DNA of 64,000 bases from Sacculina carcini (Eukaryota; Arthropoda; Thecostraca; Sacculinidae). The stretch is from contig OU696592.1 in assembly GCA_916048095.2 (NCBI GenBank), positions 1,076,626-1,140,625 on the forward strand, read 5' to 3'. Shown piece after piece: positions 12,015 to 58,024 of this stretch. How positions within the stretch are numbered: the first letter of the stretch is position 1; the number at the start of each line of letters is the position of its first letter. A model generated the notes under the pieces. The model ran no database searches and was not told the DNA's origin. It was given only the letters and a program-made list of their open reading frames with translations. The position numbers and the translations under genes were made by a program.

Positions 12015-12016
12015 AT

Positions 12017-20007: not shown

Positions 20008-23000
20008 TTGACGATGGCGGCGACGTCCTATGCGATCTGTCACCTATCGGTTGATGTCGGGATCTGTTGCGACTTGTGTGATGAATGGTACCACAGTGAT
20101 TGTATAAAAATGTCTGCATCCACCCTCAATGAGATTGGCAGAGCTCACGCCAACTGGCATTGTGATCGCTGTCAAGTCAAGTTCAAGACCTTCAAAGGTT
20201 TGGATGCAAACAGCGAACTGTTAAAGCCGCTACTGGCAGCTATCGATGAGCGTGTCAAGTCCACACTTGAGACTGCTGTCGGCAAATCGTTGATGACTAC
20301 GGCTCCTGTTGACACACAGTCGAGTCAGAACTCCACGTCCGCCTCTCTAAAGTCGAAGCTCTCATACACACTGGTGGTGAGGTCCAGCAACAATGATCCG
20401 GCTTCTGCTGCCACTCTGAAGCCTCTGCTTTCTTCTGTGCCGGTATCCTCATCGCATTTTTCCGGACGCGGTGCGGCTGTTATCATGTGCGACACTGCTC
20501 ACCACGTTCAACTCGCTGCCGAAGCTATCAAGACCAAGCCGACTTTGACAGCTACCCAGCAGTCGCCGTCACTGCAACCAAAAATCACAGTGGTCAACGT
20601 CCCGCCGAACTCGACACCGGATGATCTGATGACGTCAATTCAAGCGAAGAACTCGTTCGTCGCTGCATTCTCCGGGTCCCAGCTCCGCGTTATGTTCATC
20701 ACAAAGTCTAGGTCTGGCTCCCACGCCGTTCTGGCCGTGTCTCCTAACGTGCGCGCACTGATCAGAACGGCAGGCGATCGACTCTTCATCGACCTGGGCT
20801 GTTACCGCGTCTACGACCGGTACTGGGTGTCACGCTGGGGTTGATGTGCCGGTCTGGGGCACAAGAAAGATCGCTGTCCGACACAAAATCGTGTCACTTG
20901 CGGTTATTGCGCCGGCGAACACTACTCAACTGATTGCCCGGACAAAAGTCGAACTCGCTGTACAAACTGTATCCATCACAAACGCCCACACACACATTCA
21001 TCCTTCTCCTCTGATTGCCCGTCCTTCCTCGCTGTCCGCCAATCTATTCAGGCTCGAACCATGACCTCATGGCCAGCCGATTACAAATCAACCACCAGGA
21101 ATCTGCCGTCAACTAACAATTATGCACAGCTCAGACTGCAATCCACTATTAATTCTGCTCAAACTACCGCCACCCTTACCCAATGACTATCACCTAATGT
21201 TTCTCCTCTGTCTCCCCCTCTACATTCCCGCTCACATCCAGTTCAATTTGGATTGATAAACATTCGTTCCGCGCGCAACAAAGCATCCTATATATCTGAA
21301 ATTCTCATGGACCAACACATTTGTATCCTTTTCCTAATCGAAACGTGGCTCTTCGATTCCGATATCCTGTCTTCCACAGCCCAACTGCCTTCATCATTCC
21401 ACCTAATACATTCCAGTCGCTCTTCCTCCTCTTCACTCAAATCCCACGGGGGTGGGGTGGTTGCTGTAGTTCATTCTTCACTATCTGTCACCCGTGTCCC
21501 TAACATATCTTTCTCTTCCGTGTCATTCGAATATCTCGCACTCTCTGTTTCTATCCCAGCGTCTTCGAGATTAGGCATACTTGTTATTTATCGCCGGCAC
21601 TACCCACTTATTTATTCATGATTTCGAGGCGCTTGTCTCCATTTTCTCCTCTCATTTTTCCCACAATTTTATCGTGGTAGGCGATTTTAACTTTTGGGTA
21701 GATAGCCCGTCTCGCCAGCCTTATGCCAGAGACTTTATTTCACTCCTTGAATCCACTGACTTAACCTGTTTGAACTCATCTCCTACCCACTTATTCGGTC
21801 ACACTCTTGACCTCTTACTTACACCATCCGACGTCACCAGTCTCATTTCGCTACCTTTTACTTTCCCACCTGATTCACACTATTCCGATCACAGCCTAAT
21901 TGCAGCATCTTTATCTATTGCATCTCTCTCTCGCCCCTCATCCAAATCAATTACTGTCCGCAAATACAATAAGTTTGATTCGACCATCTTCCATCGATTG
22001 GTTCATTCACTTCTTTCTCCTTTATCATATCTTCTGCTTCCTCCTACACTTGTGCCAGAGCATATCAACAATGCCCTCTCAACTATTAATGACACTATCT
22101 TTCCTGCGCATGTAATTCGTATCCGCTCGTCTAACCCCCCCAGCCCCTGGCTTAATCGTGAGCTACGTAAACTTAGATCTGCTTGCCGCTCTAAGGAGCG
22201 ACTATGGCGTCGCTACCGCTCTCATTCATCTTGGGCTGACTTCTGTTCTGCACGCCGACGGTTTTTAACGTCCAATGCCGAGGCCAAGTCAAATTACTTT
22301 TGTCTACATCTATCTTCTTCTTCGTCAACTGCTCACCGCTGGTCAACATTGCGATCTATCACCGGCCGCTCATCCAACTCTCACTGTCCCATTCCTGCTT
22401 CTTCCATGGCCTCATTTTTCTCTGATAAAGTGACTACTGCTCTTTCGAAACTCCCAGTATCCAACACTCCTCTCACCCACACTCATTCAGCTCATTCATG
22501 TTCAGCATTTTCCCAAGTCCGCCTTTCCGAGACATACCGCTACATCGTCAAACTCAAATCCTGCAAATGCCCTTCAGACCCGATAAATTTTTCCGCTCTC
22601 TCTGACTCAATCTATACGCTTGTACCAATTTTCACCCATCTGATAAATTCCTCTTTCTTACATGGTGAATTTCTCGGTTCTAAACATGCACTGATTTCTC
22701 CAATACTAAAAAACCGTCTCTCGATATAACCTCTCCTGCTCACTATCGGCCTGTTTCACTCCTTACTTTTCAATCCAAATTAATCGAAGCAGCCATCCTG
22801 GAACAGCTGCGCCCGCACATCAATTCTATACTTGACCCACTCCAATCCGGATTCGTGCCACGCCATTCCGCAGAGACTTTACTCCTTTCCTTAATTTCTG
22901 ACGTATTTTCTCATTTCTCCTTCAAAAATACTGTGCTCTTCATATAATTAGATTTCTCGTCCGCATTCGACTTAGTGAATCACAGTATCCTACGCAAGGA

Positions 23001-24207
23001 TTTGCAGGTAGCAGGCATTAGTTCAACAGCACTTTCAATCATTTCTTCATTTCTTTCCGACTGTTCCTACGCAGTTCGCTGTAACGGCGGTACGTCCTCG
23101 TCTGTTCCTCTAAACTCAGGTGTACCACAGGGATCACTGTTAGGTCCAACCCTTTTTAATTTATGTCTCTTCTCTATGTCCTATTCTGCGTGACCACTCT
23201 GTGTCATTCCATATTTACGCAGATGATGTGCAAATCTATTTTCCTCTACGTTCTTCTTCACCTTCTCTTGTCCCTAACATACTCGCTGATGGGCCTGGGC
23301 CGCTTCTCGTGACCTCCTGTTGAATCCCGAGAAAACGCAATACTTGGTTTTTCATCCCCCCTCCATCTCTCCTCCGGTTCTCAGTCTGCCCTTTCTTCAC
23401 AAATTCGGAACCGCGGCGTTATTGTCGATTCCTCCCTCACTTTTTGCCGCCACATCATCAATACCCAGCGTACTTGCCAACACCTTATTCGCCAATTTTA
23501 CCCCATTCGACCTCTTCTGGACTACCACTCAGCGCTCCTCCTCATCCAAGCTCACATTCTTTCCCGCATAGACTACTGCAATTCTTTATTTTTCCACCTT
23601 CCATACAAAACTGTTCGTCGTCTTGATTCCGTCCTTAACCAATCTTGTCGTTTCATATTTCGCCTTCCACCACGCACTCCTACTTCTCAATACATCCATA
23701 AACTCCACTGGCTTTCTGCTATCAATCGAATAAAATACAAACTGTGCTGTCTCGTCTACAAAATCCTCCATTCTTCATCTTCTCCCTCATATCTTCGCTC
23801 TCTGCTTCTGTCTAACAACAGACCCATTTCCCGACGTTCTCTTCCTCTCATCTGTCCAGCTGCTCTTAACCTCTCTCCCTGGTCTGCCAAATCCTTCTAT
23901 TTTTCAGCCCCGCGTATCTTTAACTCACTTCATTCTCACATTCGCGATTCTTCCTCATACGCGTCCTTCTCTTCTGCTCTTCATCGTCATCTCTCCCTCG
24001 CTGCAGCATCTGACCGCAATATCTTGTAAACATCTACTTCGTGTTACCTTATCTTGCCTATGCCCTCTCGTTTTAGCGTATACTTTTATTTTTGCTTGTG
24101 TGCACTTACATTTTATTTCTAGCTGATTTCTTTCTGGTCTCTTCGCGCCCTTGTATCATTCTGGCGCTATACAAAATACATGTTTGTTGTTGTTGTTGTT
24201 GTTGTTG
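20008..24207 (+). mobile_element. CR1/L2-type LINE, nearly full length, decayed
   Basis: ORF1 (from 20008) opens with a PHD-type C4HC3 finger (CCDLCDEWYHSDC, then WHCDRC). After a stop at 20842 and a change of frame it continues with zinc knuckles (CAGLGHKKDRC, CGYCAGEHYSTDC). ORF2 starts near 21253 with an exonuclease-type endonuclease (INIRSARNK, LFLIETWL, FIVVGDFN, YSDHSLI). The reverse transcriptase follows (YRPVSLL, LDFSSAFDLVNH, NSGVPQGSLLGP, YADDVQIYF). Frameshifts near 21600, 22730 and 23190-23330 and several stops make it inactive. It ends GGCGCTATACAAAATACATG plus (TTG)8. PHD-bearing ORF1 and a short simple-repeat tail fit the CR1/L2 superfamily; the clade is an inference. Confidence 0.9.
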
Positions 24208-26651: not shown

Positions 26652-26768
26652 ATGCAACAATATCAGCCTTCTCAACTGGCGCAGCTGGTGCATGCACTGC
26701 CTCACTTCAACTTTGCTCTGAATCATGTGTCGGCCAATTTCAACGTGTCTAGTGCCGCCTATATTGAA
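26652..26768 (+). CDS. TTYH: Tweety exon 1
   Basis: Residues 1-39, starting MQQYQPSQLAQLVHALPHF and ending AAYIE. Donor GTGAGT, phase 0. The ATG is the first in frame before the conserved LVHALP block. Confidence 0.85.
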
Positions 26769-28481
26769 GTGAGTGCTGGCTCTTCTTATTAAACCACTCA
26801 CTCCGAAATAGGAAAAAAAAGTCTTCAAAATGCGATGGAATTGTGACGTAGTAGATATTAGGGTCCAGTAAAACCAGATTTTACGGAACAATTTTGCTAT
26901 TTCATTTTGTTATCGAAATAATGGCTGCTACCACTGGGATGATGCAAGCTCAAAATGATAAATATAATGCATTCAAAAGTCCTGCATTGCCATTTAATTG
27001 ACCGAGTGTGAAGATGGAGCACGACAACGCGTTCAGCTTCACCTTTTTATTGTGCACATAATCGACATGCATTATTGCCGGTGCATGTGATGCATGTGAT
27101 GCATGGGTTGGATTTTAACACTCAACAATCCAGCATGGTACGTGTGTTTGTATGTGTGTGTGTATTTATGTGTATGTGTGTATGTGTGTGTGTGTGTGTA
27201 TTCTTGTCTCTTAATGGATGCTGCTTTTCCTTCTAGACATTCTCATATAATCACTGTCTTTCTATCTTAGGACCCCGGTATTTACAATAAGCTCTCCCCG
27301 TCACTACGTTCTATCAATTCTATCCCTGTTTTCAAAAAGCACCCTGAAACATATTTCTTAGTCGAAATCGTATTATATTTTAGATAACATTATTTATACT
27401 ATCGATGAATATATGGTGTAATTTTCTCTCTTCTCTCTCCATCTTTCACTGTTTGTATGTGTGTGTGTTTGCAGCGCCCTAGAGACCCTCTACTTGGGCG
27501 CAATACATATCTACCTAATGTAATGTGTGTGTGTGTGTGTGTGTGTCAGAGTTTGGCAGCACTGAGCTCGGTGCCTGCGTTGTTGTTGGTCACGGCGCTG
27601 CTGTTATTGTTAGTGTACATGTTGTCGCGATGCTGCTGTGTCAGTCACAAGCAGAAACACACGTTCATCGGCCTCAAATGGAGCATGGGATGCGTGGCTA
27701 CACTCACCTGGTCGCTCCTCCACTCTCTCTTATCCATTCTCCACTCTCGCCACTCTGCTATTTCCCCCCCCCCTCTTCTCCAGAGTCTTCTGTGTGCCGT
27801 TTCTTGTTTGTTTTTGTTCGTTGAGTCCACTTTATTTTCTAATGCTTTCTTCCTCTAGTTTTCAGCATTTGTTCTTGATTTTATTTTTTTACTTCATCTT
27901 GTAGGCGAATTCACCGACTTATATCAATGGTATATTTCGTATCAGCTTTTTTAACTTATCGAAATATCGGATTTTCTCGCTGCTCAGGCGTTCATTAATA
28001 CGATATACTGCTCAATTATTCCTTATTTGTTTTATTTACTTCTTTTTGTCTTCTGTTTATCTAGCAAATACCATACTGATTGGCTACCAACAGTTCAGAC
28101 AATTCAGACAATTCAGACATGTCATGTTCTCGTCTGTTGTTTCAGAACATCAGTAATGCCAATTCGCTCGATCAACGCTCCATTGCTTGCCGCTTTCTGA
28201 ACTTTGTGAATATCATCACCAGCTGGACTGGTTTTCTGTGTACATTATCGGTGAATTTCTTTGTTCGTCTAGTTGTGTGTTGTTGTGAGGTGTATTTGCA
28301 AGTGTTGTTCGCGCGCGCGCGCGTGTGTATGTGTGTGTGTGTGTATAGTGTGGTGTTGGCGGCCGGTTTCTATGGCAACGAGACGGTTCACAGTGGAGTG
28401 ACGTCATTGCAGCTTAACACTGGTGCACTGGCAGACACTGTGTCCAACATCACAAACCTGGCAAGTCAACAATCTATACCA

Positions 28482-28530
<49 letters not shown>

Positions 28531-31500
28531 TGTCCCAGTGTCAGTGTGTCACTGGGATTGTTTGGCTGTCATTTTTTCAGCACGATCTGTTCTACAATAT
28601 GCCAGCTTGGAGTTGTGTTGTTGTTGTTGTTGTTGTTCCTCAAGTTGTCTGGCCGAGCAACCTCGAGCTCCTGAGGAAAGACACGGCACCGACCGGGTTG
28701 TTCCACAGGTCTCTGACTGAACTGAGCTGAAAAAAGACCTATGGAACCCGGGTGACCGAAGCCGATCCCAGGAGCTCGACAGCCCCGTCGTTCTGACGAG
28801 GCTGGAAGGGTTGTTGCTGCGGTTTGGCCTCCAGATTGGAGGGTGGTCCCACTACGTAGACGTCGCAGCTCCAGGACCCAAGGACTCCAGGAGTTGTGTT
28901 GTTGTTGTGGTCGCCATGTTGTTCACTTCAGAACCGCAGCAACCACCCCTCCCCCCGAACCCTCCCGCCGGGGGAGCCCAAGTGTTGAGTTGCCTGGTTG
29001 CCTCAGGCATGATATTAAAATGTGTCATTAGGTAGGGCATTAAATCACCCAGCTTGATGGAGACCGAGGGGCTGCTCGTAACTGCACTTTCACAAAGTCA
29101 CGCTTCCATTTTATTGGTGCTTCATTTATAATGTTAACCCCCAGTATTGCCTTCGGGGGGGGGGGGGGGGGTGGCACGAGATCTTGCATCGGCTCTGGTT
29201 GATTGGTTTTATCTGGTATTGAAATGTTTGACGCTGACTGTTGCAATCGTCTGTCAATATGCACGGGCACACTTGCGCGTGTCTCACTGCATATGTCCAG
29301 AAGCGTGTATGATGTGTGTGCAAGCCCACAATAAACACTCAATAGAAGCACGCTAGCAGTACTGGCTGCTTCAGTCAAACACATTGATGTCATATTAACA
29401 CAGTGGTGATGGCGCATGGTGTAACACATTGTATGACACGGCGCGTGTATGTGTGTGTGTTTGTGTGTGTGTGTGTGTTGGCGTGTCAAGTGCAGACGAG
29501 GTCGACGGAGACGCTGCTGGTGCAGGATGTCAGTGCTCGCTTGGAGAACCTGCGTCAGCTGTTCATGTCAGATAGTCGGCCTGCCAACGGCTCCATAGTT
29601 CGCTGGCTCGACACCGAGGTGGCGCCACTGTACACTCACACTATCACCGTGCACCTTATTCTCACTGTACTTTCATTACCCTGCGATCAGGGGATAAGAG
29701 TACTGCCACCGTACCGGCTGCGTGTCGTGTAAGAGGCGACTAAAACAGAACCCTCTGTTTTAGTTTAACCCTCTGAATGCAGCAAAGTTGGCATCCCCCT
29801 TGCACTACTGTATCTCTTTTCTGTCCTATCACCTCTACTCGAAATAAAAAATCACTCAATATGCACATCAATATATTTTCTTGTGTCATTATTCACTCGT
29901 CTGTCGTCTCACGGTGTATGGGCTCGTTCAAGTGTCTGTGTGTATAGCTGTGCATGTGTCTATGTTTGTTCTTGAGACTCTGTGTTTATGTGTGTGTGTG
30001 TGTGTATGATTGTGTGTATGATTGTGTGTGTTTGTGTGTATGATTGTGTGTTTGTGTGTGTGTTTGTATGTATGATTGTGTTTGTTTGTATGATTGTGTG
30101 TGTTTGTGTGTATGATTGTGTGTTTGTGTGCGTGTTTGTATGTATGATTGTGTGTTTGTGTATATATATGTGTGTGTATGATTGTGTTTTGTGTGTGTGT
30201 GTGTGTGTTTATGTGTATGATTGTGTGTGTGGTAGATGACGTGGATGGGCATGAACATATCCGAGGAGGTTTCTGTATTACGTCATATTGACAGCGACAC
30301 TCACCACATTCGTGCCAACGCCGTATCCTCTTATATCCGCCTCAGTGAGACCATCAGGTGACTCATATTAGCTCGTGAACTTGCTTGATCAATAACATTC
30401 ACTTGATCAACAACATTCATTTGATCAACAACATTCACTTGATCAACAACATTCACTTGATCAGTAACATTAACTTGATCAATAACATTCACTTGATCAA
30501 TAACATTAACTTGATCAGTAACATTCACTTGATCAGTAACATTCACTTGATCAACAACATTCACTTGATCAATAACATTAACTTGATCAATAACATTCAC
30601 TTGATCAGTAACATTCACTTGATCAGTAACATTCACTTGATCAATAACATTCACTTGATCAGTAACATTCACTTGATCAATAACATTCACTTGATCAGCA
30701 ACATTCACTTGATCAACAACATTCACTTGATCAGTAACATTCACTTGATCAATAACATTCACTTGATCAATAACATTCACTTGATCAGTAACATTCACTT
30801 GATCAGTAACATTCACTTGATCAGTAACATTCACTTGATCAATAACATTAACTTGATCAATAACATTCACTTGATCAATAACATTCACTTGATCAGTAAC
30901 ATTCACTTGATCAGCAACATTCACTTGATCAACAACATTCACTTGATCAGTAACATTCACTTGATCAATAACATTCACTTGATCAATAACATTAACCTGA
31001 TCAGTAACATTCACTTGATCAACAACATTCACTTGATCAATAACATTAACTTGATTAACAACATTGACCTGATCAACAACATTCACTTGATTAACAACAT
31101 TGACCTGATCAGTAACATTCACTTGATCAATAACATTCACTTGATTAACAACATTCACTTGATCAACAACATTAACTTGATCAACAACATTCACTTGATC
31201 AATAACATTCACTTGATCAACAACATTCATTTGATCAACAACATTCACTTGATCAATAACATTAACTTGATCAGGAACATTCACTTGATCGAAAACATTC
31301 ACTTGATCAACAACATTCACTTGATCAAAAACATTCACTTGATCAACAACATTCACTTGATCAACAACATTCACTTGATCAACAACATTCACTTGATCAA
31401 TAACATTCACTTGATCAATAACATTAACTTGATCAGGAACATTCACTTGATCAATAACATTCACTTGATCAATAACATTCACTTGATCAACAACATTCAC

Positions 31501-33332
31501 TTGATCAACAACATTCACTTGATCAACAACATTCACTTGATCAATAACATTCACTTGATCAATAACATTAACTTGATCAGTAACATTCACTTGATCAGTA
31601 ACATTCACTTGATCAGTAACATTCACTTGATCAGTAACATTCACTTGATCAATAACATTCACTTGATCACCAACATTTGAATATTGTCCAATTGGTGTAT
31701 GATCTACACACTAGGAAATCATTATTATACATGCTATACTATACTAATACATGCTAGTGTAAGTTTTCTATAGTTTGTATATTGTTACATACACACGTGC
31801 ACATGTGTGTGTGTTTGTGTGTACACAGATGGCCGGCCATGGTAATGTTATTGTCGCTGATAACAGTGTTCTGTATCTTGCTCCTGGTGGCCGTCGTGCG
31901 TCACTCTCGCTGGCTTCTCGTATTGTCAGTCACAACACACTAACACTGCTATTATTAACACTGCTATTATTAACACTGTTATTATTAACACTGTTATTAT
32001 TAACACTGTTATTATTAACACTGTTATTATTAACACTGTTATTATTAACACTGTTATTATTAACACTGCTATCATAAACAATGCTATTATTAACACTGCT
32101 ATTCACACTGTTATTATTAACACTGCTATTATTAACACTGTTATTATTAACACTGCTATTATTAACACTGCTATTATTAACACTGCTATTATTAACACTG
32201 CTATTATTAACACTGTTATTATTAACACTGCTATTATTAACACTGCTATTATTAACACTGTTGTCATATATTGTTGAAATGGGTTAATTTATATTATTAC
32301 ATTCCAGAACATAGCCATGTATTAAGTAATATGTTAACATAATGTATATATTGAGATAACGATGATGATTTCAGAATGTAGGCTAGTAAATGAGCAGGAC
32401 TACTGTGTTAACTCGTCTTTGAGTACTGTGTAGTGTTAATACTCATTGATGAGGAGTTTATATTCAGTTGCAATTCATTGTGTTTATTCAGTTGAGTGGA
32501 TTGTCGAAATGTCGTGTGTGTATTGATGTGTGTCAAGTGTACACGTGTGTGTGTGTGTGTTTGTGTGTGTGTGTTGGTGTGTGTGTGTGTGTCTGTGTGT
32601 GTGTGTGTGTGTTGGTGTAGTTTCTCCGTGGTGTCTTTGTTCTCCCTGATTGTCTGCTTTCTGCTGGCTTCCGTGTACGTGTTCGTCACCGTGGTGAGTG
32701 CTTCACTACACACTGACACACTAATACTGACACTGACACAGTAATACTGACACTGATGCACTAATACTGACACTGATGCACTGACACACTAATACTGACT
32801 CTGACGCACTAATACTGACACTGACATACTGACACACTAATACTGACACTACACACTGATATTGACACACTAATACTGACTCTGACACTGACACTAAATA
32901 CTGACACTGATACACTGATATTGACACTGACACTACACACTAATACTGACACTGATACACTGATACTGACTCTGACACTACACACTGACACTGACACTGA
33001 CACACTAATACTGATACACTGACACACCGACATACTGACTCATAGTGACATTTTAGTCATTATCTATGTGCATGTTAGTTTGCAACTCATAATCAGCGAT
33101 GTTCACATGCTGGTGTATCTCACAACCAATGTGTTTCGTTCCACAAGCTCACTCATGTTTGTGTGTGTGTGTGTGTGTCTGTTAGTTATATAGTTAGTTT
33201 ATTTATTGGCCACAACACATGTTACAGTACAAAATAATAAAATAAACACAATGAGCAAAAAAGTGGGTCGAACTGACGCTCGTTGACCAACTTGTTTTCA
33301 TAACATAGCTATATAAACCCGATGCATATCTG

Positions 33333-33383
<51 letters not shown>

Positions 33384-36300
33384 TCAGGGCATGGCTGATT
33401 TTTGTGTGTGGCCCGATATGACGGTGCGAGCGGCCGTGACGTCACAGTTCGCCGACGAGCGGTTTGGCTCGACCGTGGCCACCTACTACCTGAACTGCAG
33501 CGGCGGTGCGTCGCCATGGCAACAACCGCTGGCCGCCGCGCAATCGCACGCGCAACTCATGCTCACACGACTCGACGACATCAATAATGTCGCGCTCAAA
33601 TACTACCCGTCGTCCTCGGTGCCAACTGCCACACATCACTCTCTCTTCACATTACTCTCTCTCACACACACTCTCCCAAGTGGCTTATTATTGCAGGCGC
33701 TTCATGTGCGGTACACGACCAATGAGGGTTCATGATAGGTCCAGGGTTTGATTCCCTGCCACGCACTAATCTCGCATCCGTGTGATGAGTCACCGTGTAT
33801 CTGGACCAGCACATTGTCACTTCATTTTGTTCACAGTCCGTGTACTCACAGTTGTAGTTTACAGGAAATGAGCAGGGCTCAGACTGTCCTGTCTCCATAC
33901 CCACATTTATCTAATCTATGCTTGAACTGTGCTATACTGTTTGATTGAACTATTTCTTTACCCAAACGGTTCCATATATCTATACACCTACTTGGGAAAC
34001 TGTACTTCTTTATATCCCTTAATACCCGGGTTTGCTGTAGACATTTATTGTGTCCCCTATGGTCCCTCGTACTCCAAACCACCCAATCTTTCCTATCCAA
34101 TCGCTCCATACCAAGGCTGTGCTTGAAAACGTTTATTAAATCCCCCCTTAACCTTCTCTTTTCCAGTGACGACAACCCAATTTTCTCTAACCTTTTTTCA
34201 TAGTTCAACGAACTCAATGATGTTAACAGCTTAGTCGCTACTTTTTGGACTTTCTCTAACCTAGCGATATGTTTTTTGTGTGTGTGTGTGTGTGTGTGTG
34301 TCAGTTGGAGCCTGCCGTTGCTGAGCTACGTACTCACTTGTCATCATGCCAGGCGGTGTACAAGACAATGTCAGATGCGCTGCTGTGTCAGAACATCCAC
34401 CGTCTATATGAGCGGTCACTACACTCGCTGTGCGACACTACTCTGTGAGTGCGGCTTCTTGGGGTTCAAAACCCGACCGAGCAGAATTTCTTGGGTGAAT
34501 TCTACAATCCAACAGCCCCTGTCCACCCAGCAGTAAATGATGGTACCAGATATCAGTCATGAGTTGTGTCGTGCATTCTGGGGAGGTGGTCCTCTCTAAT
34601 ACGTATTCCTTCCTTGTGGCGTCATAGCGTGGAGAGGGTTGGTTCTGCGGTGGCAGCGAGCTGCACGGGACACCCCTGTGTATGTTCATAAGCTTCGACT
34701 TCTTCCCGTGTAGCAGCTGTCACTTGAGGTCTTAAACGTGTAACCTACTAGCGCGGAGATATTTGGTCGTGTCTGTCTGAATTATCACTTGAACACACAA
34801 TTAAATCACGGGCACTTTGACATTACGTGCTTGCTCTTCTATGGTATTTTTTATTTTACACATTTTTGGGTATAGCCTGAGCTGTGCATGGACTGACATG
34901 AATTTATACTGATATGTTTATACTCCTCCCATGCTACGGCATTTGCCTGTAATTTATAATAATAATAATAATAATAAGGGATGGACATTGGTGTCAATAT
35001 AATGTAATATAATATAACATAATGTAACGACAGCATTGCGGTCGTGTTGTTTAATGTTGTCGAGGTTAATAATGTCTTTATGCTAGCTGCATATTGACAG
35101 TTGAATTACTCTAGTGGTATTAGTTGCTGTGTTCACCTGTGACGTTGCCTTTTGGTTGAGTTTTGGCTTTGTGCCTCTTACTGATTGATTGTAGATTAAT
35201 CTATTGGTCTCATGTATTATGTAGTTTCACTAATGTCGCAAAGGTTACATGTCAATTTTGTTAAACTGCATTTCCTGGCAAGATATCCTTCCCCGAGTTC
35301 TAAACATGCTCTTTGAAACAATGCTCGGTTTGATGTTATGTTTGTTTTTGGCTGGCATCATCATGTAATACACACATGTGTGCTTGTGTGTGTGTGTGTG
35401 TGTGTGTGTGATATGCAGTGTGGGCGTTGTTGTGCTCGTGTTATCGCTGTTGTTGTGTGGTCTGGCGCTAATTGTACTTGCCTGGTGTGACGCGCACGCC
35501 TGGATCCACATTCAAAAACGGTACCACTTCTCTCACTCACTCACACACACACTAGCACACACACACACACACACACACTCGGTTAATAAGGGGTAGGCAA
35601 ATTGTTGGACGTGTGTGTGTATGTATTTTCCAATGTTTCATTGTTCTCACAACCTGTCAATTCCGGCATGAAATCAGTGAGAACTACAATGATAAAATAA
35701 ATGGAATTAAATAAGTAAATCAATTGTGTTATTTGTAGTGAGCTGTGTGTGTGTGTTTGTGTGTGTTGTTAGTCGGGACTACTTGCGCGTGGACACGGTG
35801 GATCACTACGGCACCACGTGTCGCCGTCCTCCTTCACTGTCCACCCTGACTGCCGTGCCGCCTGGAGGAGGAGGAGGCGCCAGTGGAGGAGGATATGTTG
35901 CCATGGCGACCAGGCTGGGCCGAGATACACCGCCACCCCTGCCTCTGTCCACCTCTTCCACCACAAGACTGCGTCCTCCACCGCCATTTCCCACCGCCAA
36001 CCACGGCTCTCTTAGACCGTTGTCAGTTGACATACACACTGACACATACTGACACATTCTCACACACACTGACACATACTGACACACTCAAACTGGCACA
36101 CACACACACACACTCACACTGACACACACACACAAACAGACAATCATACTCGTACAGGCGCCTACACAAAAACATTGTGCAGGTTTTATAAAACATTTTA
36201 AAGCCCAGTGTTGTGAATTCGACCTGTGATCGTTGAGCACTGAAGAGAAGTCAGTTGGAGATGAACTCGGCATTAACACTCACACAATACACACTGACTG

Positions 36301-39300
36301 ACACACTACTAGATATTCAATCGTCTGCTAATTACACTAAAACCTCTATTTGAGCGGCATGTTGTTCTATTTTTCAAACCTTCTATCTCGTAGTGTCGTT
36401 CAATTATAGGGTGCCGCTCTATTTTTCCGCTATTTGGTCGGAATTTTCGAAAAAAATACGGTAAATTTTATGGATGAAAAAGTAACTAGGTAACGTATAC
36501 ATATTTACTCAACAAAAGACACAAATACACGATGATTATTGGTAATTAATCACAAATACACTAATAAAATGAGTCAGTCATGCCTATTGCCAAGAGATAA
36601 TTGATCAAAGTGAAGTTTAATTAGAGTTACCGTTCAATTAGAGGATTTGCGGTAGGTGCCATCATGAGACAATATTGAAATATACCATCACAAACAGTGC
36701 ATCACTTTTACCGCAAATTGAGAATCTATTTTGCAGTGTTTCATTCTGAATGAATGTGTGTGTGTGTCTGTGTGTGTGTGCGATATAGTATGAGGATAGG
36801 TCACGATGTGTTTTACAACGTGATGTGTTGTGATGTGTGATATGGTACAGTTCGAGGATGATGTCTTGTGTGATGTGATGTGTGATGTGGTACAGTTCTA
36901 GTATGATGTCTTGTGTGATGTGATGTGTGATGTGGTACAGTTCTAGTATGATGTCTTGTGTGATGTGATGTGTGATGTGGTACAGTTCGAGAATGATGTC
37001 TTGTGTGATGTGATGTGTGATGTGGTACAGTTCGAGGATGATGTTTTGTGTGATGTGATGTGTGATGTGGTACAGTTCGAGGATGATGTCTTGTGTGATG
37101 TGATGTGTGATGTGGTACAGTTCGAGGATGACGGAGGGACAGCAGAGAGCAGGTGTGATGGCGGGGGGAACTTTGCCCACACGCTACACCTCAGCCGGCC
37201 CTGTTGTAAGTAGACCCGGTCCTCTCGGCCTCACGGCGCAGTACGCCACTCTTTCTCGACAATGCAAGACTCTGGAGTCGTCCGATTTCTACTAACACTC
37301 CGTCTCTCCCTCTCTCTCTCCCTGTCTCTCTCCCTCTGTCTGCCTGCTGGTGACAATCTGGTGCCGGGTTGTTGTGTGGAGTCTAATGCTTGCATGACGC
37401 CTGCTCGTACTAACCCACTTGCCTGACCATCATACCCCTCTGTGTGTCTGTGCGTGAGTGTCTTTTATGGCGTAGAGCTCAGTTTTGAACAAAAAGTATC
37501 GCTTTAAGTGTAGGGTTTTAACGCTTGATGTGTATATTCTTGTGTAGTCGACAGATGAATGTGTTTGTTTGTCTGTCTGTCTTGCGTATGTTTTTGTGTG
37601 TGTGTGTGTGTGTGTGTTTATATGCTATGTCTGTCGTTTATTTTTCAGGGTTTTTTATTCAGGGGCTTTCTCGTGAACTAATGTAATGCAGCCATTTTTG
37701 CTCTCTTGCTGTCTGGACCGATTTAAACAATATTTGTTCCATGTATTTATTATATATTGAGCGAGGTTAGAGATTTCAGTGCAAGACACGCTACAAACAT
37801 TATCCCAATGTAAATTTGATGCGAGATAAATTTTATGCAAGCGGCTTGCAATGCTATCATTGCAATCATCCACTCATCATCGCACTGCTAGCAACATTCT
37901 CAACATTCGGGGTGTATGTGTTTGCCATACACACACACATACATACGCACACAAATATGCGCGCTTAAATATATACGCACACTGTTTCCTATCATGAGTA
38001 AGAGTTTTATATTTTGGCATTTATTTGAGATTGTAGAGCGTATATTTGGAGGTTGGTGGCGATTATGGCTCAATATATTATCGTTTTTTTAATTTATTAT
38101 CTGCAGGTTATTATGTGTGTTGTGTTGTGTTGTGCGCTCATTTGAGCGTTGTTGTTTATGCTGTGTTATTGCAGCGTGTGACTTGGCAACAATGAGGCTT
38201 TTTTCTAGTCATCTTGTCTTTTCATATTCAACGCCTCGATTTTGTATGATCACCATGTGTATGTATGTGTGTGTGTGTTTTCTAGTTGCTTAATACATTA
38301 GAGCTGGTATGTGTGTGTGTGCGTGTGTGGGTGAGTGGTTTTTAATGCACCAGTCATGAGGAGGAGCTACCAACAATACTAACATTAACAAATATATCAC
38401 TAACAACGCTAACATCAACAAGATACGACAAACAACTCTAACATTAACCAAATACTACTAACAACGCTAACATTACAAAGTTCTACTGATTCCTTATTGA
38501 TTATTATCTCGACCATCCTTCATATCGTATTATCTTATTATCTAATTATCATTGTTTTCTTTCGCTGTCCTTCTGCTATTGTCTGCACAAAGTTGCTGGG
38601 TTATTTTCGCCGTCCAAATCAACCTTGTCGACTCAGTCAGTTATCCAGTCGTTCAGTTAGTCAGTTATCCGGTTAGTTATTCAGTTAGTCAGTCATTCGG
38701 TCAGTGATTGAGTCAGTCATTCGGTTATTTAGTCAGTCATTCGGTTATTTAGTCAGTCATTCGGTTAGTTATTCAGTTAGTCAGTCATTCGGTCAGTAAT
38801 TGAGTCAGTCAGTTAGTTAGTCAGTCATTCGGTTAGTTATTCAGTCAGTAATTGAGACAGTCAGTTAGTTATTCAGTCAGTAATTGAGTCAGTCAGTCAG
38901 TCATTTAGTTAGTTATTCAGTCAGTAATTGAGTCAGTCAGTTAGTCAGTCATTCGATTAGTCATTCAGTCAGTAATTGAGTCAGTCAGTTAGTTAGTTAT
39001 TTAGTCAGTAATTGAGTCAGTCAGTTAGTTAGTCAGTCAGTTAGTTATTCAGTAATTGAGTCAGTCAGTTAGTTAGTTATTTAGTCAGTGATTGAGTCAG
39101 TCAGTTAGTTAGTTATTTAGTCAGTAATTGAGTCAGTCAGTTAGTTATTTGGTCAGTAATTGAGTCAGTCAGTTATTCAGTCAGTCAGTAATTGGGTGCG
39201 GCCGCAGATATTTCAGCTGTTTGCTATTTGATCCTGCGATTTATTTGATCGGTCGCGGTTTTCATGGCAGCATGGTGGCTATTGGTCTTGTTAATGGTGT

Positions 39301-39987
39301 TAATGGTGACGTGAAGGGGCCTCGCCATCTTGCTGTATTTGCGCTTATAACTGGCATTGTCGTCAAGGTCAGTTTGGTATTTCGCACTGCTCCTGTTCTC
39401 TGTCTCTCACTCACACACTCTCTCCTCGTCCACCGTTGCTCTTTCATGCATCGGCACATGCCTCATCGTTCAGTGTTTTATTATCATGTTATCTACTGCA
39501 CTCGTTTAGCACAGTGTCCACGTGTCTCTCACCGACACAATGTCTATTCGGCTTGCAGACTTGCATGTTGCACACTTACATGATGCAGACTTGCATGCGC
39601 GTTCTGTCATTGTCTTCGAGATTTATTTTATTTATTGTTTGTTGCTGTTTGAGTTGTATTTTAGCGGTGACAACTGGTGTTTACTGCGTGATTCTGGCAG
39701 TCATTTCAAAGCGGATTTTTGCTCGCTGATTTCTCATATTATTTACTCTGTTGTGTTTTTTGTGTTTTTATTTTCTGATCGTGCACACGTTTCACTCTGT
39801 TATACGGGCTTTGATTTTATGTAAAGTGGACATTGTTAAAAACTCGTGAGGTCGTGCTAATGTTGGCTGGGCTTGTGATACGTGGGCGCGTGTGTGACAG
39901 GGCACGTGCACCGATCCTCCTCCTTACACCACGGCCCTCCTGTCTTCAAGTGTGGCCGAACACTCCGACTACGATAACTACAACTAG
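26652..39987 (+). CDS. TTYH: Tweety-family (TTYH) five-pass membrane channel protein, 13-exon model
   Basis: Joined exons: 26652-26768, 27550-27710, 28349-28460, 29496-29618, 30236-30357, 31829-31924, 32621-32693, 33388-33618, 34305-34444, 35419-35520, 35773-36021, 37121-37205 and 39901-39987. All phases agree and give 565 residues. Family marks are LVHALPHFNF near the N-terminus, TM1 (47-65) followed by CCC, TM2 ending in GFYGN, TM3 (about 214-235), TM4 (244-268), the paired cysteines of DFCVWPD and YYLNCSGG, LLCQNIHRLYERSLHSLC, and TM5 (393-415). N-glycosylation sequons lie in the presumed outer loops (NVS, NET, NIT, NIS, NCS). Tweety proteins are plasma-membrane proteins linked to swelling-activated anion currents and lipid handling. 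The tail is Pro/Gly-rich and can end in two ways. AATAAA at 40493 could serve the long form. No transcript data support the model; exon 4's left edge has an alternative. Confidence 0.9.
27550..27710 (+). CDS. TTYH: Tweety exon 2 (TM1)
   Basis: Residues 40-92 plus two bases. Acceptor (TG)n-TCAG. TM1, the CCC motif and GLKWSMGCVATLT are here. The donor GTCGCT is weak but is the one that keeps phase with exon 3. Confidence 0.8.
28349..28460 (+). CDS. TTYH: Tweety exon 3 (TM2 end, first outer loop)
   Basis: Completes Cys93 and encodes VVLAAGFYGNETVHSG through VSNITNL. Acceptor (TG)n-TATAG. It ends at CTG before GCAAGT, a good GC-type donor. A GT two codons later (phase 1) is the alternative. Confidence 0.8.
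28606..28905. repeat. GC-rich repeat-like block bounded by GAGTTGTGTTGTTGTTGT (intron 3)
   Basis: The block starts and ends with the same TTG-rich phrase (28608 and 28890), as a target duplication or a tail would give. GC content is higher than the surrounding intron. No protein frame or known family is recognised. Confidence 0.4.
29496..29618 (+). CDS. TTYH: Tweety exon 4 (outer loop 1)
   Basis: Residues 131-171, TRSTETLLVQDVSARLENL through VRWLDTE. Acceptor GTGCAG after a (TG)n tract. If the phase-1 donor of exon 3 is used, the exon would begin at 29491 after CAAG instead. Donor GTGGCG. Confidence 0.75.
29678..29850 (+). repeat. Dispersed repeat with CTGCGTGTCGT core, copy 2 (intron 4)
   Basis: Matches 5529-5712 in core and tail. 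It lies 60 bases downstream of Tweety exon 4. Confidence 0.75.
30236..30357 (+). CDS. TTYH: Tweety exon 5 (outer loop 1)
   Basis: Residues 172-211 plus two bases: MTWMGMNISEEVSVLRHI through IRLSETI. Acceptor GGTAG after about 45 bases of TG-rich sequence; donor GTGACT. Confidence 0.8.
30380..31676. repeat. 18-bp minisatellite in Tweety intron 5
   Basis: About 72 units of ACATTCACTTGATCAATA and variants; each unit holds the palindrome TGATCA. Because 18 is a multiple of three and units lack stops, 430-440 codon frames stay open on both strands; they are not genes. Confidence 0.97.
31829..31924 (+). CDS. TTYH: Tweety exon 6 (TM3)
   Basis: Completes Arg212, then WPAMVMLLSLITVFCILL and VVRHSRWLLV. 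Matches the family's RW-TM3-K/R-x-W-L block. Acceptor TACACAG after a TG tract; donor GTCAGT. Confidence 0.85.
31940..32272. repeat. 15-bp minisatellite in Tweety intron 6
   Basis: About 22 units of CTGTTATTATTAACA, alternating CTGTT and CTGCT variants. Confidence 0.95.
32621..32693 (+). CDS. TTYH: Tweety exon 7 (TM4)
   Basis: Completes Phe244, then FSVVSLFSLIVCFLLASVY and VFVTV. Acceptor GGTGTAG after a 75-base TG tract; donor GTGAGT, phase 0. Confidence 0.85.
32700..33045. repeat. ACTGAC-based microsatellite in Tweety intron 7
   Basis: Irregular mixture of ACTGAC, ACACTAATACTGAC and GATACACTGATA words. A similar CACTGACACATACTGACACA run follows exon 11 at 36035-36130. Confidence 0.85.
33388..33618 (+). 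CDS. TTYH: Tweety exon 8 (second outer loop)
   Basis: Residues 269-345, with the paired cysteines of MADFCVWPD and TYYLNCSGG and the SPWQQPL segment that aligns with NPFQQRL of vertebrate TTYH. Acceptor GATCAG after (TG)23; donor GTGCCA. Confidence 0.9.
33695..33790 (+). repeat. tRNA-like B-box fragment (intron 8)
   Basis: CAGGGTTTGATTCCCTG forms a perfect T-arm hairpin with a B-box-like centre. No matching D arm or acceptor stem is seen, so this is at most a decayed SINE head joined to the LINE tail that follows. Confidence 0.4.
33800..34265 (-). mobile_element. LINE 3' fragment (intron 8)
   Basis: The minus strand encodes NYEKRLEKIGLSSLEKRRLR, GDLINVFK, RCIDIWNRL and FKHRLDKCGYG, the C-terminal end of a CR1/Jockey-like polymerase. 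A related fragment lies at 58110-58462. The 112-codon frame is open; the 5' part is lost. Confidence 0.8.
34305..34444 (+). CDS. TTYH: Tweety exon 9 (second outer loop end)
   Basis: Residues 346-391 plus two bases: LEPAVAELRTHLSSC through RSLHSLCDTT. Acceptor (TG)n-TCAG; donor GTGAGT. SINE copy 4 begins within a few bases of the donor. Confidence 0.88.
34451..34726 (+). repeat. tRNA-Val-like SINE, copy 4 (5' truncated, intron 9)
   Basis: Keeps only the B-box end of the tRNA head (GGGGTTCAAAACCCGACCGA) and the full body to GTAGCAGCTGTCACTTGAG. It starts a few bases after the exon 9 donor. Confidence 0.85.
34915..34978 (+). repeat. Retroposon tail with (TAA)n (intron 9)
   Basis: CTCCTCCCATGCTACGGCAT, then TTTGCCTGTAAT and (TAA)7; partner of 15010-15096. 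Confidence 0.55.
35419..35520 (+). CDS. TTYH: Tweety exon 10 (TM5)
   Basis: Completes Leu392, then VGVVVLVLSLLLCGLALIVL and AWCDAHAWIHIQK. Acceptor ATGCAG after (TG)n; donor GTACCA. Confidence 0.87.
35773..36021 (+). CDS. TTYH: Tweety exon 11 (cytoplasmic tail)
   Basis: Completes Arg426, then RDYLRVDTVDHYGTTC, a Gly run, and Pro-rich segments (DTPPPLPL, LRPPPPFPT). Donor GTCAGT at 36022. Reading through would stop at 36052. Confidence 0.75.
36334..36662. mobile_element. Decayed Tc1/pogo-like MITE (intron 11)
   Basis: AACCTCTATTTGAGCGGCAT at the left and CCGTTCAATTAGAGGATTTG at the right are loosely inverted. The interior is AT-rich and non-coding. A tentative call. Confidence 0.35.
36826..37120 (+). 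repeat. 45-bp minisatellite ending at the exon 12 acceptor
   Basis: Seven units, each carrying GATGTGGTACAGTTCGAG or TTCTAG variants. The last GGTACAG is the exon 12 acceptor. The units are TG-rich. Confidence 0.9.
37121..37295 (+). CDS. TTYH: Tweety exon 12, short-isoform C-terminus
   Basis: Acceptor GGTACAG is the last copy of a 45-base minisatellite. The exon reads SRMTEGQQRAGVMAGG and continues to a stop at 37295 with TAQYATLSRQCKTLESSDFY (566-residue form). A strong internal donor GTAAGT at 37206 allows splicing to exon 13 instead, so this is both an internal and a terminal exon. Confidence 0.65.
38630..39195. repeat. TCAG/TTAG-based tandem repeat (intron 12)
   Basis: A 565-base run of GTCAGTCAGTTAGTTATTCA words with longer composite periods such as CAGTCAGTAATTGAGTCAG. 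Confidence 0.93.
39901..39987 (+). CDS. TTYH: Tweety exon 13, PPPY-bearing alternative C-terminus
   Basis: Acceptor TGTGTGACAG. Reads GTCTDPPPYTTALLSSS and ends EHSDYDNYN-stop, in phase with the internal donor at 37206. PPPY is a WW-domain ligand; vertebrate TTYH2/TTYH3 are known to bind the ubiquitin ligase NEDD4-2 through a PY motif. Confidence 0.65.
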   Translation, partial: GTCTDPPPYTTALLSSSVAEHSDYDNYN

Positions 39988-45199: not shown

Positions 45200-45272
45200 T
45201 GCTAAACGAACGACTGTGTGTGGCGTGCCCGTGAGCAGCTAGAGGCGATCAGTTGCACCAGCCGTATGCCAA

Positions 45273-46091
45273 ATGTTCGGCTACAATAATAGGATGTTCG
45301 CGTGCGAGGTGTGTTCGAAGCGCTTCTGCACGCGCAAGGACGTCAAGCGACACATGGTCGTTCACACGGGCAGACGCGACTTTGCATGTCGTCACTGTCC
45401 ACGCAGGTTCGGCCGCAAGGATCACTTGCTGCGACACGTGCGCAATTCTCACGTGCTGCCTCGGTCGCCGGCGGTGGCGGAGCTACCGACCCCTGGCAGC
45501 AGCGGGATGGCAACATCGGGCCATCATGTTCCCTTCTGTACGTTCCAGGTCTGCCAACCGGACGGCGTGACAATGACTTCGTATGTGCCCTGCGTCCATC
45601 AACGCCCCTCTTTCGTGCTGCCCCGGTCTGCCATCCAAGTTCCTCAAGCAGAGTACGGGCACCAACAGCGTGCACAGCCACCGCTGAGGCAACAGTATAT
45701 GTACGAGTCCGACGCTCCGCCGCACATCATCAGCGCAGATTCTATGCCGGAACTCGGCGCCTTGCTCGGGGAGCCCACTGGTCCCGCTGCTGCCACGAGC
45801 ATGCACCGCACCTCACACCAACCTGCCGGTGCCGTTGCCAGCTCGTCGCACGTGCTGTCGTCGCCGTACGGGGAGCCGCGTGGCACACACAATGTGTCCA
45901 CGCAGACGGATATGAGCGCAGGCGGTGCAGTGCCAGGCCACAATACGCTCACTTTTTACACCCAGTGGGCAACGGACAGCGTGTCTGTGTCAACACTCGG
46001 CGCATCACGTGCCGCCGCTCCGCCGTTACACCACGATCAGCAGTCCCTCAGGCAGTTTCCTCACGTGCCCGGTACATACAATACAGAATAA
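45273..46091 (+). CDS. PLAG-family C2H2 zinc-finger protein, two-finger form
   Basis: A 272-residue frame begins with two C2H2 fingers (C11/C14/H27/H31 and C39/C42/H55/H60). The joined sequence DVKRHMVVHTGRRDFACRHC, then RRFGRKDHLLRHVRNSH, closely resembles the last two fingers of vertebrate PLAG1/PLAGL proteins (RRHMVVHTGRKDF..RFGRKDHLTRHMKKSH). PLAG proteins are nuclear sequence-specific activators with seven fingers; five are missing here. An in-frame TAG at 45240 means the frame either starts at this ATG or is entered by splicing between 45243 and the first finger (GATCAG at 45246-45251 is a candidate acceptor). I see no upstream fingers in the preceding 5 kb. The rest is Pro/Ser/Gln/Ala-rich, as activation regions are. 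AATAAA lies at 46437, 346 bases past the stop. Confidence 0.75.
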   Translation: MFGYNNRMFACEVCSKRFCTRKDVKRHMVVHTGRRDFACRHCPRRFGRKDHLLRHVRNSHVLPRSPAVAELPTPGSSGMATSGHHVPFCTFQVCQPDGVTMTSYVPCVHQRPSFVLPRSAIQVPQAEYGHQQRAQPPLRQQYMYESDAPPHIISADSMPELGALLGEPTGPAAATSMHRTSHQPAGAVASSSHVLSSPYGEPRGTHNVSTQTDMSAGGAVPGHNTLTFYTQWATDSVSVSTLGASRAAAPPLHHDQQSLRQFPHVPGTYNTE

Positions 46092-50651: not shown

Positions 50652-52286
50652 CTAATTGGCGGTTTGGTGGACAATACTCGTGTTGATTAAGCACAGCTGA
50701 CCTTTCTGCATACGCAACACTAGCAGCTCGCACTGACCCAGTCTGCTGAGTCGGTCAACGACCCAGCGCGAGGTCAGCTCAAGCGAATCGGCAATTGGCG
50801 CCGCCATGTTGAGAAAGAGCAGCGAATTGCGGCCGAACACCCACACACGCTCACACTGCTTGTATTCCGCAGAAGAGCAGGTGTTATTGGAGGTAGAGTG
50901 CTGGGGGAACGGCGTGGACGATAGCAACATGGTGAACACGGGCTGGGCACTCATAATGCAGCCACATGCTGATTTACTACACACGCCATCCGCACGCAGG
51001 CTCGACATCACACGATAATGACTGTTTGATGGAGATTGCTTCGTGCCGCAGCGAGGACACACCAACAACCAGCCAACTCTTGAGGAAAGTCCGTCTGATG
51101 GACCTCGTTGTCGCCGGGAATCACACAAGCGCACGTAAGCACGCACAATCGCCGATGAGTTGGCAGTCAATTGTCCCAGCTGCGCCACGTTCAGTCGCGG
51201 AGCGTCGGTGATCGTCACGACCTTGGCAGTCAGCGCTGACCTCGGCTGACCTCGACTGGTCACGTGACACGCGCCCGGGGTCGTGTGAGCGGCCACGGCG
51301 AGACGAGAGGCAAACTGCTGGCGCAATTGCTGGAGATGATTGCCGGCAAGTGGCACAATGGCAGGCTCATCCTCGGCCAGCATTGCCACGAGAAATACGC
51401 AACCAGCAGTCGCCACGCTCGTCTCCTCTGGCGGAGGCAGCTTCTGCACGCGAACCCTCTTGAGCATCACACAGACGGGTCCCGCCGTCGCCGCCGACGA
51501 CGTGCTAGTCTTCAAGAGAGACAGAGCCGTCGAACACCGAGCACAACGCATTTGAACCAGCAGCCCTCTTCCGCTGTCACAATACTCTGTCACTCCGTCA
51601 TGCACCTGCACGCGCAGCGGACATGCGGTGCCGTCCGTCACTCGCAGCATGGTCGCGTCCTGCGACACGTCGACTATTTGCACGTGCAGGTTGTAGAGGC
51701 CGGCGTGACGCAGGTGGTTGATGGTGGCGACGGTGCTGGCGCCACTGATCCACTCGCTCCACACGGGCCGCCAGTACTGGGTCAGCCAGTCATACAGCCA
51801 GCTGACACGACGCTGCTCCTGCTCGCTGACCGTCTGACCAGTGCGACACAGCAGCGCCCCCTGTGCGGCCGACTGTTGGTTGTCGAAGACGAGCAGGTCG
51901 TGCAGCGAAAAGACGCGCCCGTCCAGCTTGCCGTTGTGCATTTCCATCTTGACTCGACGCGCGCAAACGACGCGGCCGACGGTGAACAGCGACGCCACGT
52001 CACACGCAGAAGTCTCACCGTGCTTGATGAAGACAAACAGCAGCAGATCGGCGCGCGGCGAGTCGGCCAGCGCACATGACGGGTCCTTCAGCACCAGCAT
52101 GCTCTTGAAACCACAGCGCGAGTGCGACAGTGCGTCGGGAACCTCAGCCACCACGCCTACCAGTGTCACACGACACCATTGACTGCGCTCGTTGAGAGAT
52201 GCCAACAGTGGCATGCAAGAAAGGACATCATCGGGACCAGGAGGAGGTAAGTAGCGTGGAAATACAGGTGGAGACAAGTCTGTCAT
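50652..52286 (-). CDS. POT1: POT1, protection of telomeres protein 1, single coding exon
   Basis: A 544-residue uninterrupted frame. An N-terminal OB fold (about 36-136: CRVTLVGVVAEV, VCARRVKMEMHNGKLDGRVF) and a second OB fold (about 160-285: YDWLTQYWRPVW, LRVTDGTACPLRVQ, VMLKRVRVQKL) match the telomeric single-strand DNA-binding module. A C-terminal OB fold follows, with CPRC (410-413) and CSKSACGC (436-443) as likely zinc ligands. The end (GQLCLINTSIVHQ) aligns with the human C-terminus. POT1 caps the G-strand overhang and binds TPP1 through its C-terminal part. Human POT1 is 634 residues; here only about 22 residues separate the cysteine pairs, so the Holliday-junction-resolvase-like insert appears absent. 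Vertebrate POT1 genes have many introns; this one has none in the coding part. TTTCACTGTGCAG directly before the ATG could be the acceptor of a 5' UTR intron containing the satellite. Confidence 0.88.
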   Translation of the reverse strand: MTDLSPPVFPRYLPPPGPDDVLSCMPLLASLNERSQWCRVTLVGVVAEVPDALSHSRCGFKSMLVLKDPSCALADSPRADLLLFVFIKHGETSACDVASLFTVGRVVCARRVKMEMHNGKLDGRVFSLHDLLVFDNQQSAAQGALLCRTGQTVSEQEQRRVSWLYDWLTQYWRPVWSEWISGASTVATINHLRHAGLYNLHVQIVDVSQDATMLRVTDGTACPLRVQVHDGVTEYCDSGRGLLVQMRCARCSTALSLLKTSTSSAATAGPVCVMLKRVRVQKLPPPEETSVATAGCVFLVAMLAEDEPAIVPLAGNHLQQLRQQFASRLAVAAHTTPGACHVTSRGQPRSALTAKVVTITDAPRLNVAQLGQLTANSSAIVRAYVRLCDSRRQRGPSDGLSSRVGWLLVCPRCGTKQSPSNSHYRVMSSLRADGVCSKSACGCIMSAQPVFTMLLSSTPFPQHSTSNNTCSSAEYKQCERVWVFGRNSLLFLNMAAPIADSLELTSRWVVDRLSRLGQCELLVLRMQKGQLCLINTSIVHQTAN

Positions 52287-52299
52287 GCTGCACAGTGAA

Positions 52300-57946: not shown

Positions 57947-57954
57947 GTGCGTCA

Positions 57955-57956
<2 letters not shown>

Positions 57957-58024
<68 letters not shown>
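57957..58024. repeat. (CA)n microsatellite in MED11 intron
   Basis: 34 uninterrupted CA units. Confidence 0.97.

Follow-up and report, generated by a model that had tools for sequence, protein, structure and literature searches.

Which signal marks the 3′ splice sites of a gene whose introns end almost throughout in TG repeats, at the place of the pyrimidine tract? This question is raised by a Tweety gene of Sacculina carcini, found in a 64,000-nt stretch of contig OU696592.1 (assembly GCA_916048095.2, positions 1,076,626 to 1,140,625; this whole stretch is called the window, and its own positions are used throughout). The coding region, a frame-consistent model backed by Pfam and alignment, comprises 13 exons on the + strand (26652-26768, 27550-27710, 28349-28460, 29496-29618, 30236-30357, 31829-31924, 32621-32693, 33388-33618, 34305-34444, 35419-35520, 35773-36021, 37121-37205, and 39901-39987). 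The UG tracts sat at the place of the pyrimidine tract, at a TG level well beyond that of random positions in these introns. We consider it close to an even chance (probability roughly 0.48) that they serve this gene as functional 3′ splice signals instead of polypyrimidine tracts, with closing of the intron by AC:UG pairing in a subset.

An initial annotation of the window had placed TG runs directly before the acceptors of exons 2-11, and they were found there to within a few bases, with the acceptors following directly and the frame kept. On the + strand, these were (TG)11 before exon 2 (27524-27545), (TG)7 before exon 3 (28330-28343), a TG tract before exon 4 (29450-29477), the end (30190-30231) of a TG-rich tandem array (29981-30231) before exon 5, (TG)5 before exon 6 (31804-31813), a TG tract before exon 7 (32546-32611), (TG)23 before exon 8 (33337-33382), (TG)12 before exon 9 (34277-34300), (TG)13 before exon 10 (35385-35410), and a TG tract before exon 11 (35744-35770) that is also the 3′ arm of a predicted hairpin of intron 10. 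As likewise proposed, the acceptor of exon 12 lay at the end of a TG-rich minisatellite (36824-37131, +; period 45, 6.8 copies), which ended 11 nt inside the exon. The sequence ahead of exon 13 (39886-39900, +) was weakly TG-rich. The 45-bp minisatellite has copied the exon 12 acceptor itself: between 36845 and 37115, in the last part of intron 11, GTACAGTTC occurred seven times at 45-bp steps, with the final copy at the real acceptor. Reading the unit by eye, we observed that the choice of an upstream GTACAGTTC copy would keep the phase and introduce a stop.

TG richness was measured as the fraction of TG/GT steps in the 40 nt ahead of the last 3 intron bases. For introns 1-12, it was 0.60, 0.52, 0.72, 0.75, 0.45, 0.90, 0.92, 0.65, 0.78, 0.65, 0.50, and 0.38, respectively. 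The acceptor mean of 0.652, compared with 0.204 at random positions of the same introns, was reached by 0 of 100,000 placements, and the TG content was thus no uniform intron background. Per-intron tail fractions ranged from 0.003 to 0.117; therefore, no single intron was extreme, and what was extreme was the consistency across introns. With a threshold of at least 0.45, set with the data in view and for the one gene studied, 11 of the 12 Tweety acceptors were TG-rich, compared with 6.0% of 415 other intronic AGs. Outside the gene, within the window, the same threshold was reached by 2.3% of 2245 AGs on the + strand and by 1.5% of 3302 on the − strand. The claim that TG stands in place of a pyrimidine tract at nearly every acceptor was therefore borne out, with exons 13, 6, and 12 as the weaker cases. 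Among ten dinucleotide classes, GT/TG alone was clearly enriched at acceptors (z = 9.4; the next class, CG/GC, 0.8). Pyrimidines made up 0.40-0.60 of the 20 nt that precede the final three bases of the 12 introns, so the repeat does not mask an ordinary pyrimidine tract beside it.

Four other acceptors were placed in the window, belonging to three other genes: that of MED11 exon 2 (TG fraction, 0.20; pyrimidine fraction, 0.60), two of a glycine-rich gene (TG, 0.20 and 0.12; pyrimidine, 0.65 and 0.40), and one before a minus-strand frame of 544 aa (TG, 0.40; pyrimidine, 0.55) that adjoins a 4-kb satellite. A family match backs MED11 alone among these, the remaining three having been placed by eye, without homologs. 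None of the four reached a TG fraction of 0.45, compared with 11 of 12 in the Tweety gene (12/4368 = 0.003, by hand arithmetic and with the post hoc threshold), which hints at a gene trait rather than a species trait. The initial annotation had set the acceptors of the glycine-rich gene and MED11 apart from those of Tweety. Their TG fractions (0.12-0.20) agreed with this, but a (CA)34 run (57956-58023, +), starting 9 nt into the MED11 intron (57947-58798), had been overlooked. The Med11 profile matched on both sides of this intron (exon 1, E = 2.9e-5, below the curated cut-off; exon 2, E = 1.8e-11).

The introns of the Tweety gene held 22 TG loci of at least 5 units; 11 ended at most 30 nt from an exon (in 10 of 12 introns) and 11 were elsewhere. 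The suggestion that microsatellites were tolerated only at acceptors was thus too strict, but a filter imposed by splicing fits both the excess of TG over CA loci on the sense strand (22 vs. 3) and the lack of CA runs at acceptors (0 loci). A UG run contains no AG and therefore lengthens the AG-free zone, which had a median of 52.5 nt ahead of the 12 Tweety acceptors vs. 12 nt between other AGs. No A was present between −15 and −50 in introns 6 and 7, the next being at −78 (intron 6) and −52 (intron 7); their branch points would therefore lie at or beyond these positions, unless closer than −15. In the branch-point look-up, YTNAY motifs occurred at scattered distances, from −25 to beyond −80, with none within 120 nt of the acceptor in introns 2, 10, and 11, and the look-up was uninformative beyond introns 6 and 7.

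By sequence comparison, the gene is assigned to the Tweety (TTYH) family. The predicted product (565 aa; stop at 39985-39987; frame kept at every junction) matched Pfam Tweety (PF04906) with E = 7.8e-77 over residues 6-436 of 565, spanning the membrane domain, and the solved chains of tweety homologs 1, 2, and 3 matched it by sequence. A protein search with the product, in which 7994 candidates were scored, returned four relatives: Amphibalanus amphitrite (45% identity over 100%), Pollicipes pollicipes (51% over 79%), a contig protein (50% over 100%), and Ornithodoros turicata (28% over 85%). These matches probably point to a crustacean that is related to barnacles without being near either Amphibalanus or Pollicipes. 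Exons 1-10 aligned with the relatives without exon-sized gaps. The tail (exons 11-13) was variable, with PPFPT and a terminal SDYDNY common to P0001 and Amphibalanus. Intron lengths ranged from 252 to 2695. Eleven of the 12 introns had a GT donor; intron 3 (from 28461) probably uses a GC donor (CTG|GCAAGT). Its alternative junction, a GT donor 4 nt downstream combined with an acceptor 5 nt upstream, is in frame and was rejected because it inserts three residues that the ungapped homologs lack. Internal exons 2, 3, 5, 7, 9, and 12 have lengths that are not multiples of 3, so skipping any one of them would break the frame. Exon 12 also remained open past its donor (37206-37295) for 29 codons and a stop, ending in ...QYATLSRQCKTLESSDFY, a possible alternative C-terminus; the tail of this read-through form had no relative among 12 candidates.

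The initial annotation missed the AC-enriched donor ends of these introns, which bring in a third mechanism, the pairing of intron ends. The AC/CA fraction from +7 to +66 after donors averaged 0.283, compared with 0.154 at random positions of the same introns, for a feature that had been spotted by eye before testing. This enrichment was reached by 1 of 100,000 random sets (3 of 100,000 with two other window sizes, and 3 of 100,000 in a second run). It held whichever single intron was dropped (P ≤ 0.0003) and also when introns 10 and 11 were both removed (P = 0.0007). A fraction of at least 0.30, again a threshold set with the data in view, was found after the donor in six of the 12 introns (4, 6, 7, 8, 10, and 11). 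Intron 4 had an AC-rich start (29625-29684; AC, 0.30) and intron 8 an AC/CT-rich one (33625-33675; AC, 0.35), both identified from composition and the latter also from the duplex predictions described below. Tandem repeats began 16 nt into intron 6 (TAACACTGCTATTAT minisatellite, 31941-32260), 16 nt into intron 7 (AC-rich minisatellite, 32710-33027), and 12 nt into intron 11 (AC-rich array, 36034-36142), all three supported by duplex prediction. Intron 10 carried CA repeats 21 nt from its start (35542-35577), the partner, in both fold and duplex predictions, of the TG tract before exon 11. All six features are on the + strand. A perfect (CA)5 or longer run within 100 nt of the donor was present in introns 10 and 11 only. 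CT/TC was enriched as well (z = 4.1) and GT was low (z = −1.9); donor ends can therefore be described as G-poor as well as AC-rich. They were also poor in AG, TT, and AT.

Pairing between ends was assessed with duplexes of the first and last 100 nt of each intron, compared with 300 base-shuffled 5′ and 3′ ends. The duplex of an intron's own ends beat both the shuffled 5′ ends (≤4/300) and the shuffled 3′ ends (≤11/300) in introns 6, 7, 8, 10, and 11. Intron 3 also exceeded its shuffles (10/300 and 5/300), presumably by G-U pairing, since both of its ends are GU-rich. In introns 1, 2, 4, 5, 9, and 12 and in MED11, the duplex was no better than the shuffles. Intron 10 (252 nt) was predicted to fold end to end into a stem of CA run and UG tract that has the acceptor at its base; the energy was −77.6 kcal/mol (z = −3.62), matched by 0 of 200 shuffles. 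In the whole-intron ensembles, intron 11 had 40.8 expected end pairs, more than any of its 12 rotations; intron 4 had 29.5, yet its duplex did not exceed the shuffles; and the ends of intron 7 hardly paired (0.6 expected pairs). The rotation control covered 12 introns (Tweety 1-11 and MED11, with Tweety intron 12 omitted for length). It gave 17.7 expected end pairs in real introns vs. 11.3 on average in rotated ones, a weak difference because many rotations exceeded the real value. In introns 1, 2, 5, 7, and 9, the artificial ends created by rotation often paired as well (8-10 of 12 rotations).

These results can be accommodated in one scheme. TG microsatellites would have grown in a repeat-rich genome and would have been retained at acceptors, since such a run is free of AG, offers a U at every second base, and could be bound by splicing activators. 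The likeliest reader of the tracts would be PUF60, which is Half-pint in insects, acting together with U2AF; CELF-type proteins seem less likely. For consecutive exons of one gene, an activating reading of the tracts is likelier than a repressive one. Branch points in some introns may lie unusually far upstream. The same genome would supply AC-rich repeats on the donor side; pairing between donor and acceptor ends, as in fish, might additionally draw the splice sites together in roughly half of the introns. We regard as rather unlikely a broader proposal, that AC(5′)/UG(3′) repeats form, in this crustacean lineage, an alternative splice-site grammar in which UG tracts, with AC partners behind many donors, replace pyrimidine-tract recognition across whole genes, and which is convergent with that of fish and has splicing efficiency set by microsatellite length.

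Several observations weigh against the UG tracts as working signals. The exons were built from sequence, with acceptors placed by frame and homology. Exon 13 (0.38) and, in part, exon 6 (0.45, with AC mixed in) have no good UG tract, and exon 12 is a weaker case, in which the acceptor follows a TG-rich 45-bp minisatellite rather than a (TG)n run. The AG-free zone of intron 3 measured only 5 nt, and that of the MED11 acceptor reached 137 nt despite the lack of a UG tract. Only two introns call for a distant branch point, since the remaining 10 of 12 offer an A between −15 and −50. None of the four other acceptors of the window has a UG tract, and they are no richer in pyrimidines (0.40-0.65) than the Tweety acceptors. 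Weak pyrimidine tracts are thus not peculiar to Tweety and may be acceptable throughout this genome, and the UG runs could be dispensable. The added pairing has its own difficulties. Six of 12 introns lack an AC-rich donor end, and intron 3 instead carries (GT)21 24 nt after its donor (within 28461-28526), the only TG locus of at least 5 units within 100 nt after a donor in the gene. Own ends paired no better than swapped ends (−41.1 vs. −43.8 kcal/mol), because every UG tract can pair with every AC tract, and donor AC was not correlated with acceptor TG (rho = 0.13, P = 0.68). Where a single motif recurs in this way, the swap and correlation tests separate the models poorly, yet they give pairing no support.

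Much of the same evidence bears on a reading, possible though doubtful in our judgment, in which RNA structure closes the intron: donor AC would pair with acceptor UG, U2AF2 would be dispensable, and UG would be a pairing partner, not a protein site. The donor enrichment in AC/CA was robust to leaving introns out, but the AC-rich end is missing in half of the introns (6/12) and the accompanying CT/TC enrichment (z = 4.1) is expected from plain avoidance of decoy GT sites. Duplexes exceeded shuffles in introns 6, 7, 8, 10, and 11, although ends exchanged between introns pair equally well, and acceptor TG showed no correlation with donor AC. Intron 10 folds end to end (z = −3.62) and intron 11 stands above all 12 of its rotations; elsewhere, rotations often match the real introns, and intron 7 has only 0.6 expected pairs. 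The MED11 intron begins with (CA)34, but its acceptor lacks a UG tract and the duplex of its ends does no better than shuffles. The fish introns provide a precedent for such closing, as far as the available passages of the reports go (PMC12962679, PMC7404189).

The tracts might instead be tolerated without any special role, a passive filter sparing TG runs at acceptors, where they bring some U but no AG, and AC/CT runs after donors, where they create no decoy GT. Tandem repeats do fill the window, 11 of 22 TG loci lie away from acceptors, donor ends are rich in AC and CT and poor in GT, AG, TT, and AT, and other acceptors of the window have equally low pyrimidine fractions. We nevertheless consider this unlikely: 11 of 12 vs. 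0 of 4 exceeds plain tolerance, albeit with small numbers and a threshold set afterwards, and tolerance leaves unexplained why nearly every acceptor, not just some, gained a TG tract. A switch over the whole gene, with TDP-43 (TBPH) or CELF proteins bound to all tracts and turning splicing off or on as a unit, is possible but unsupported, and we rate it as highly improbable. The tracts match the UG sites known for TDP-43 on GT repeats, to judge from excerpts of two papers (PMC13174678, PMC12171016), and skipping of exon 2, 3, 5, 7, 9, or 12 would break the frame; however, TDP-43 on UG represses in CFTR, twelve repressed acceptors would silence the gene, and the signal also fits activating readers. 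The complementary ends of about half of the introns also bring to mind insertions of mobile elements with AC-rich and TG-rich inverted repeats, of the introner type. Against this origin, intron interiors looked unrelated, with two short cross-intron blastn matches of 18 and 64 bp (13 introns, low complexity masked), lengths varied from 252 to 2695, and no ends were shared beyond the dinucleotide; on account of the unrelated interiors and variable lengths, we set it aside as scarcely credible.

The remainder of the window is rich in repeats, with 100 rows of tandem repeats, some overlapping, distributed throughout. The MED11 intron (57947-58798) also has a (TA)35 run followed by (TG)9. The glycine-repeat gene, at approximately 1898-3205 on the − strand, appeared by eye to consist of minisatellite exons, and a (CA)22 run on the minus strand (3587-3630) lies upstream of its exon near 3200. 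The 544-aa frame (50655-52286, −) starts after a 4-kb satellite of 21/42 bp (52291-56351). The frame looked POT1-like, but that name is a guess (Pfam POT1PC, E = 0.1, below cut-off); the search of solved structures gave nothing convincing, and the protein search gave no relatives. A single open frame with a C2H2 zinc finger is present at 45243-46091. tRNA matches occurred at 998-1069, 4143-4214, and 5145-5216, with downstream sequences that look alike by eye; the three stretches may be a tRNA-derived short interspersed element. Intron 9 of the Tweety gene contains, at approximately 34480-34560, a stretch that by eye is similar to these. Two pairs of blocks seemed duplicated by eye (5930-6330 and 7050-7460; 9000-9650 and 12000-12650). 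A retroelement-like frame was seen near 10326-11063, and a pair of frames resembling a long interspersed element at 21187-24029, with an endonuclease match for 21575-22729 below the curated cut-off.

If the UG tracts are functional, a highly mutable repeat does an otherwise conserved job in nearly every intron of one gene, and changes in its length would tune Tweety splicing. Introns with AC and UG ends would then be known from an arthropod, far from fish and lamprey, and the 12 acceptors of one gene would form a natural series in which UG as a protein site could be compared with UG as a pairing arm.

AC-GT introns of fish and lamprey were reportedly described by Lin et al. in 2016 (Genome Res, 10.1101/gr.181008.114). 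In fish, thousands of intronic UG repeats are accompanied by complementary CA repeats (PMC12962679), and the ends of AC-GT introns pair, so that the splice sites are brought together and U2AF2 is dispensable (PMC12962679, PMC7404189); the passages of these papers that we compared give no end assignment, that is, which end has UG and which has AC. Within that limit, the Tweety introns resemble those of fish and lamprey in combining UG repeats with complementary AC-rich sequence that could pair with them and draw the intron ends together, and the fish-type UG repeat at one intron end was present in 11 of 12 (TG of at least 0.45). They differ in that Tweety is an arthropod gene with a near-universal UG tract, whereas the AC partner is found in about half of the introns.

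The (TG)m(T)n element of CFTR intron 8, ahead of exon 9, likewise has a UG repeat just upstream of an acceptor. In CFTR, however, the repeat is followed by a U tract, affects a single exon, and acts as an inhibitor, with TDP-43 bound to it repressing exon 9 (PMC12171016, in part). Such repression would be an odd design for 12 consecutive acceptors. Poly(UG) (pUG) quadruplexes require a minimum of 11.5 units (PMC12962679), and human pUGs with at least 12 units are reportedly enriched close to splice sites (PMC12276007), according to excerpts of both papers. By length, the (TG)12 to (TG)23 runs that precede exons 8-10 reach this minimum, whereas the perfect runs before the other Tweety exons have 5-11 units.

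Among the literature examined, the nearest documented route for an activating UG signal at the 3′ splice site would appear to be that of PUF60 and GANAB. In the sections of the report available, poly(GU) competes better than poly(U) for tract binding by PUF60, and the natural 3′ splice site of GANAB exon 6, with its distant branch points at −74 and −80, needs the UG-rich part of its tract (PMC6093180). The Tweety tracts share with this PUF60-dependent site a UG-rich segment and, by our reasoning from the positions of A, distant branch points. They differ from it in composition: the GANAB tract joins a 27-nt UG-rich segment to a 40-nt UC-rich one (PMC6093180, same sections), whereas the last 40 nt of the Tweety introns are low in CT steps (0.033). 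No title among the matches listed from the open-licence literature concerned UG-tract acceptors in a crustacean or another invertebrate. The kind of signal is already known, from human pUGs and fish introns; as far as this literature was searched, what is new is its arthropod setting and its near-universal use in one gene.

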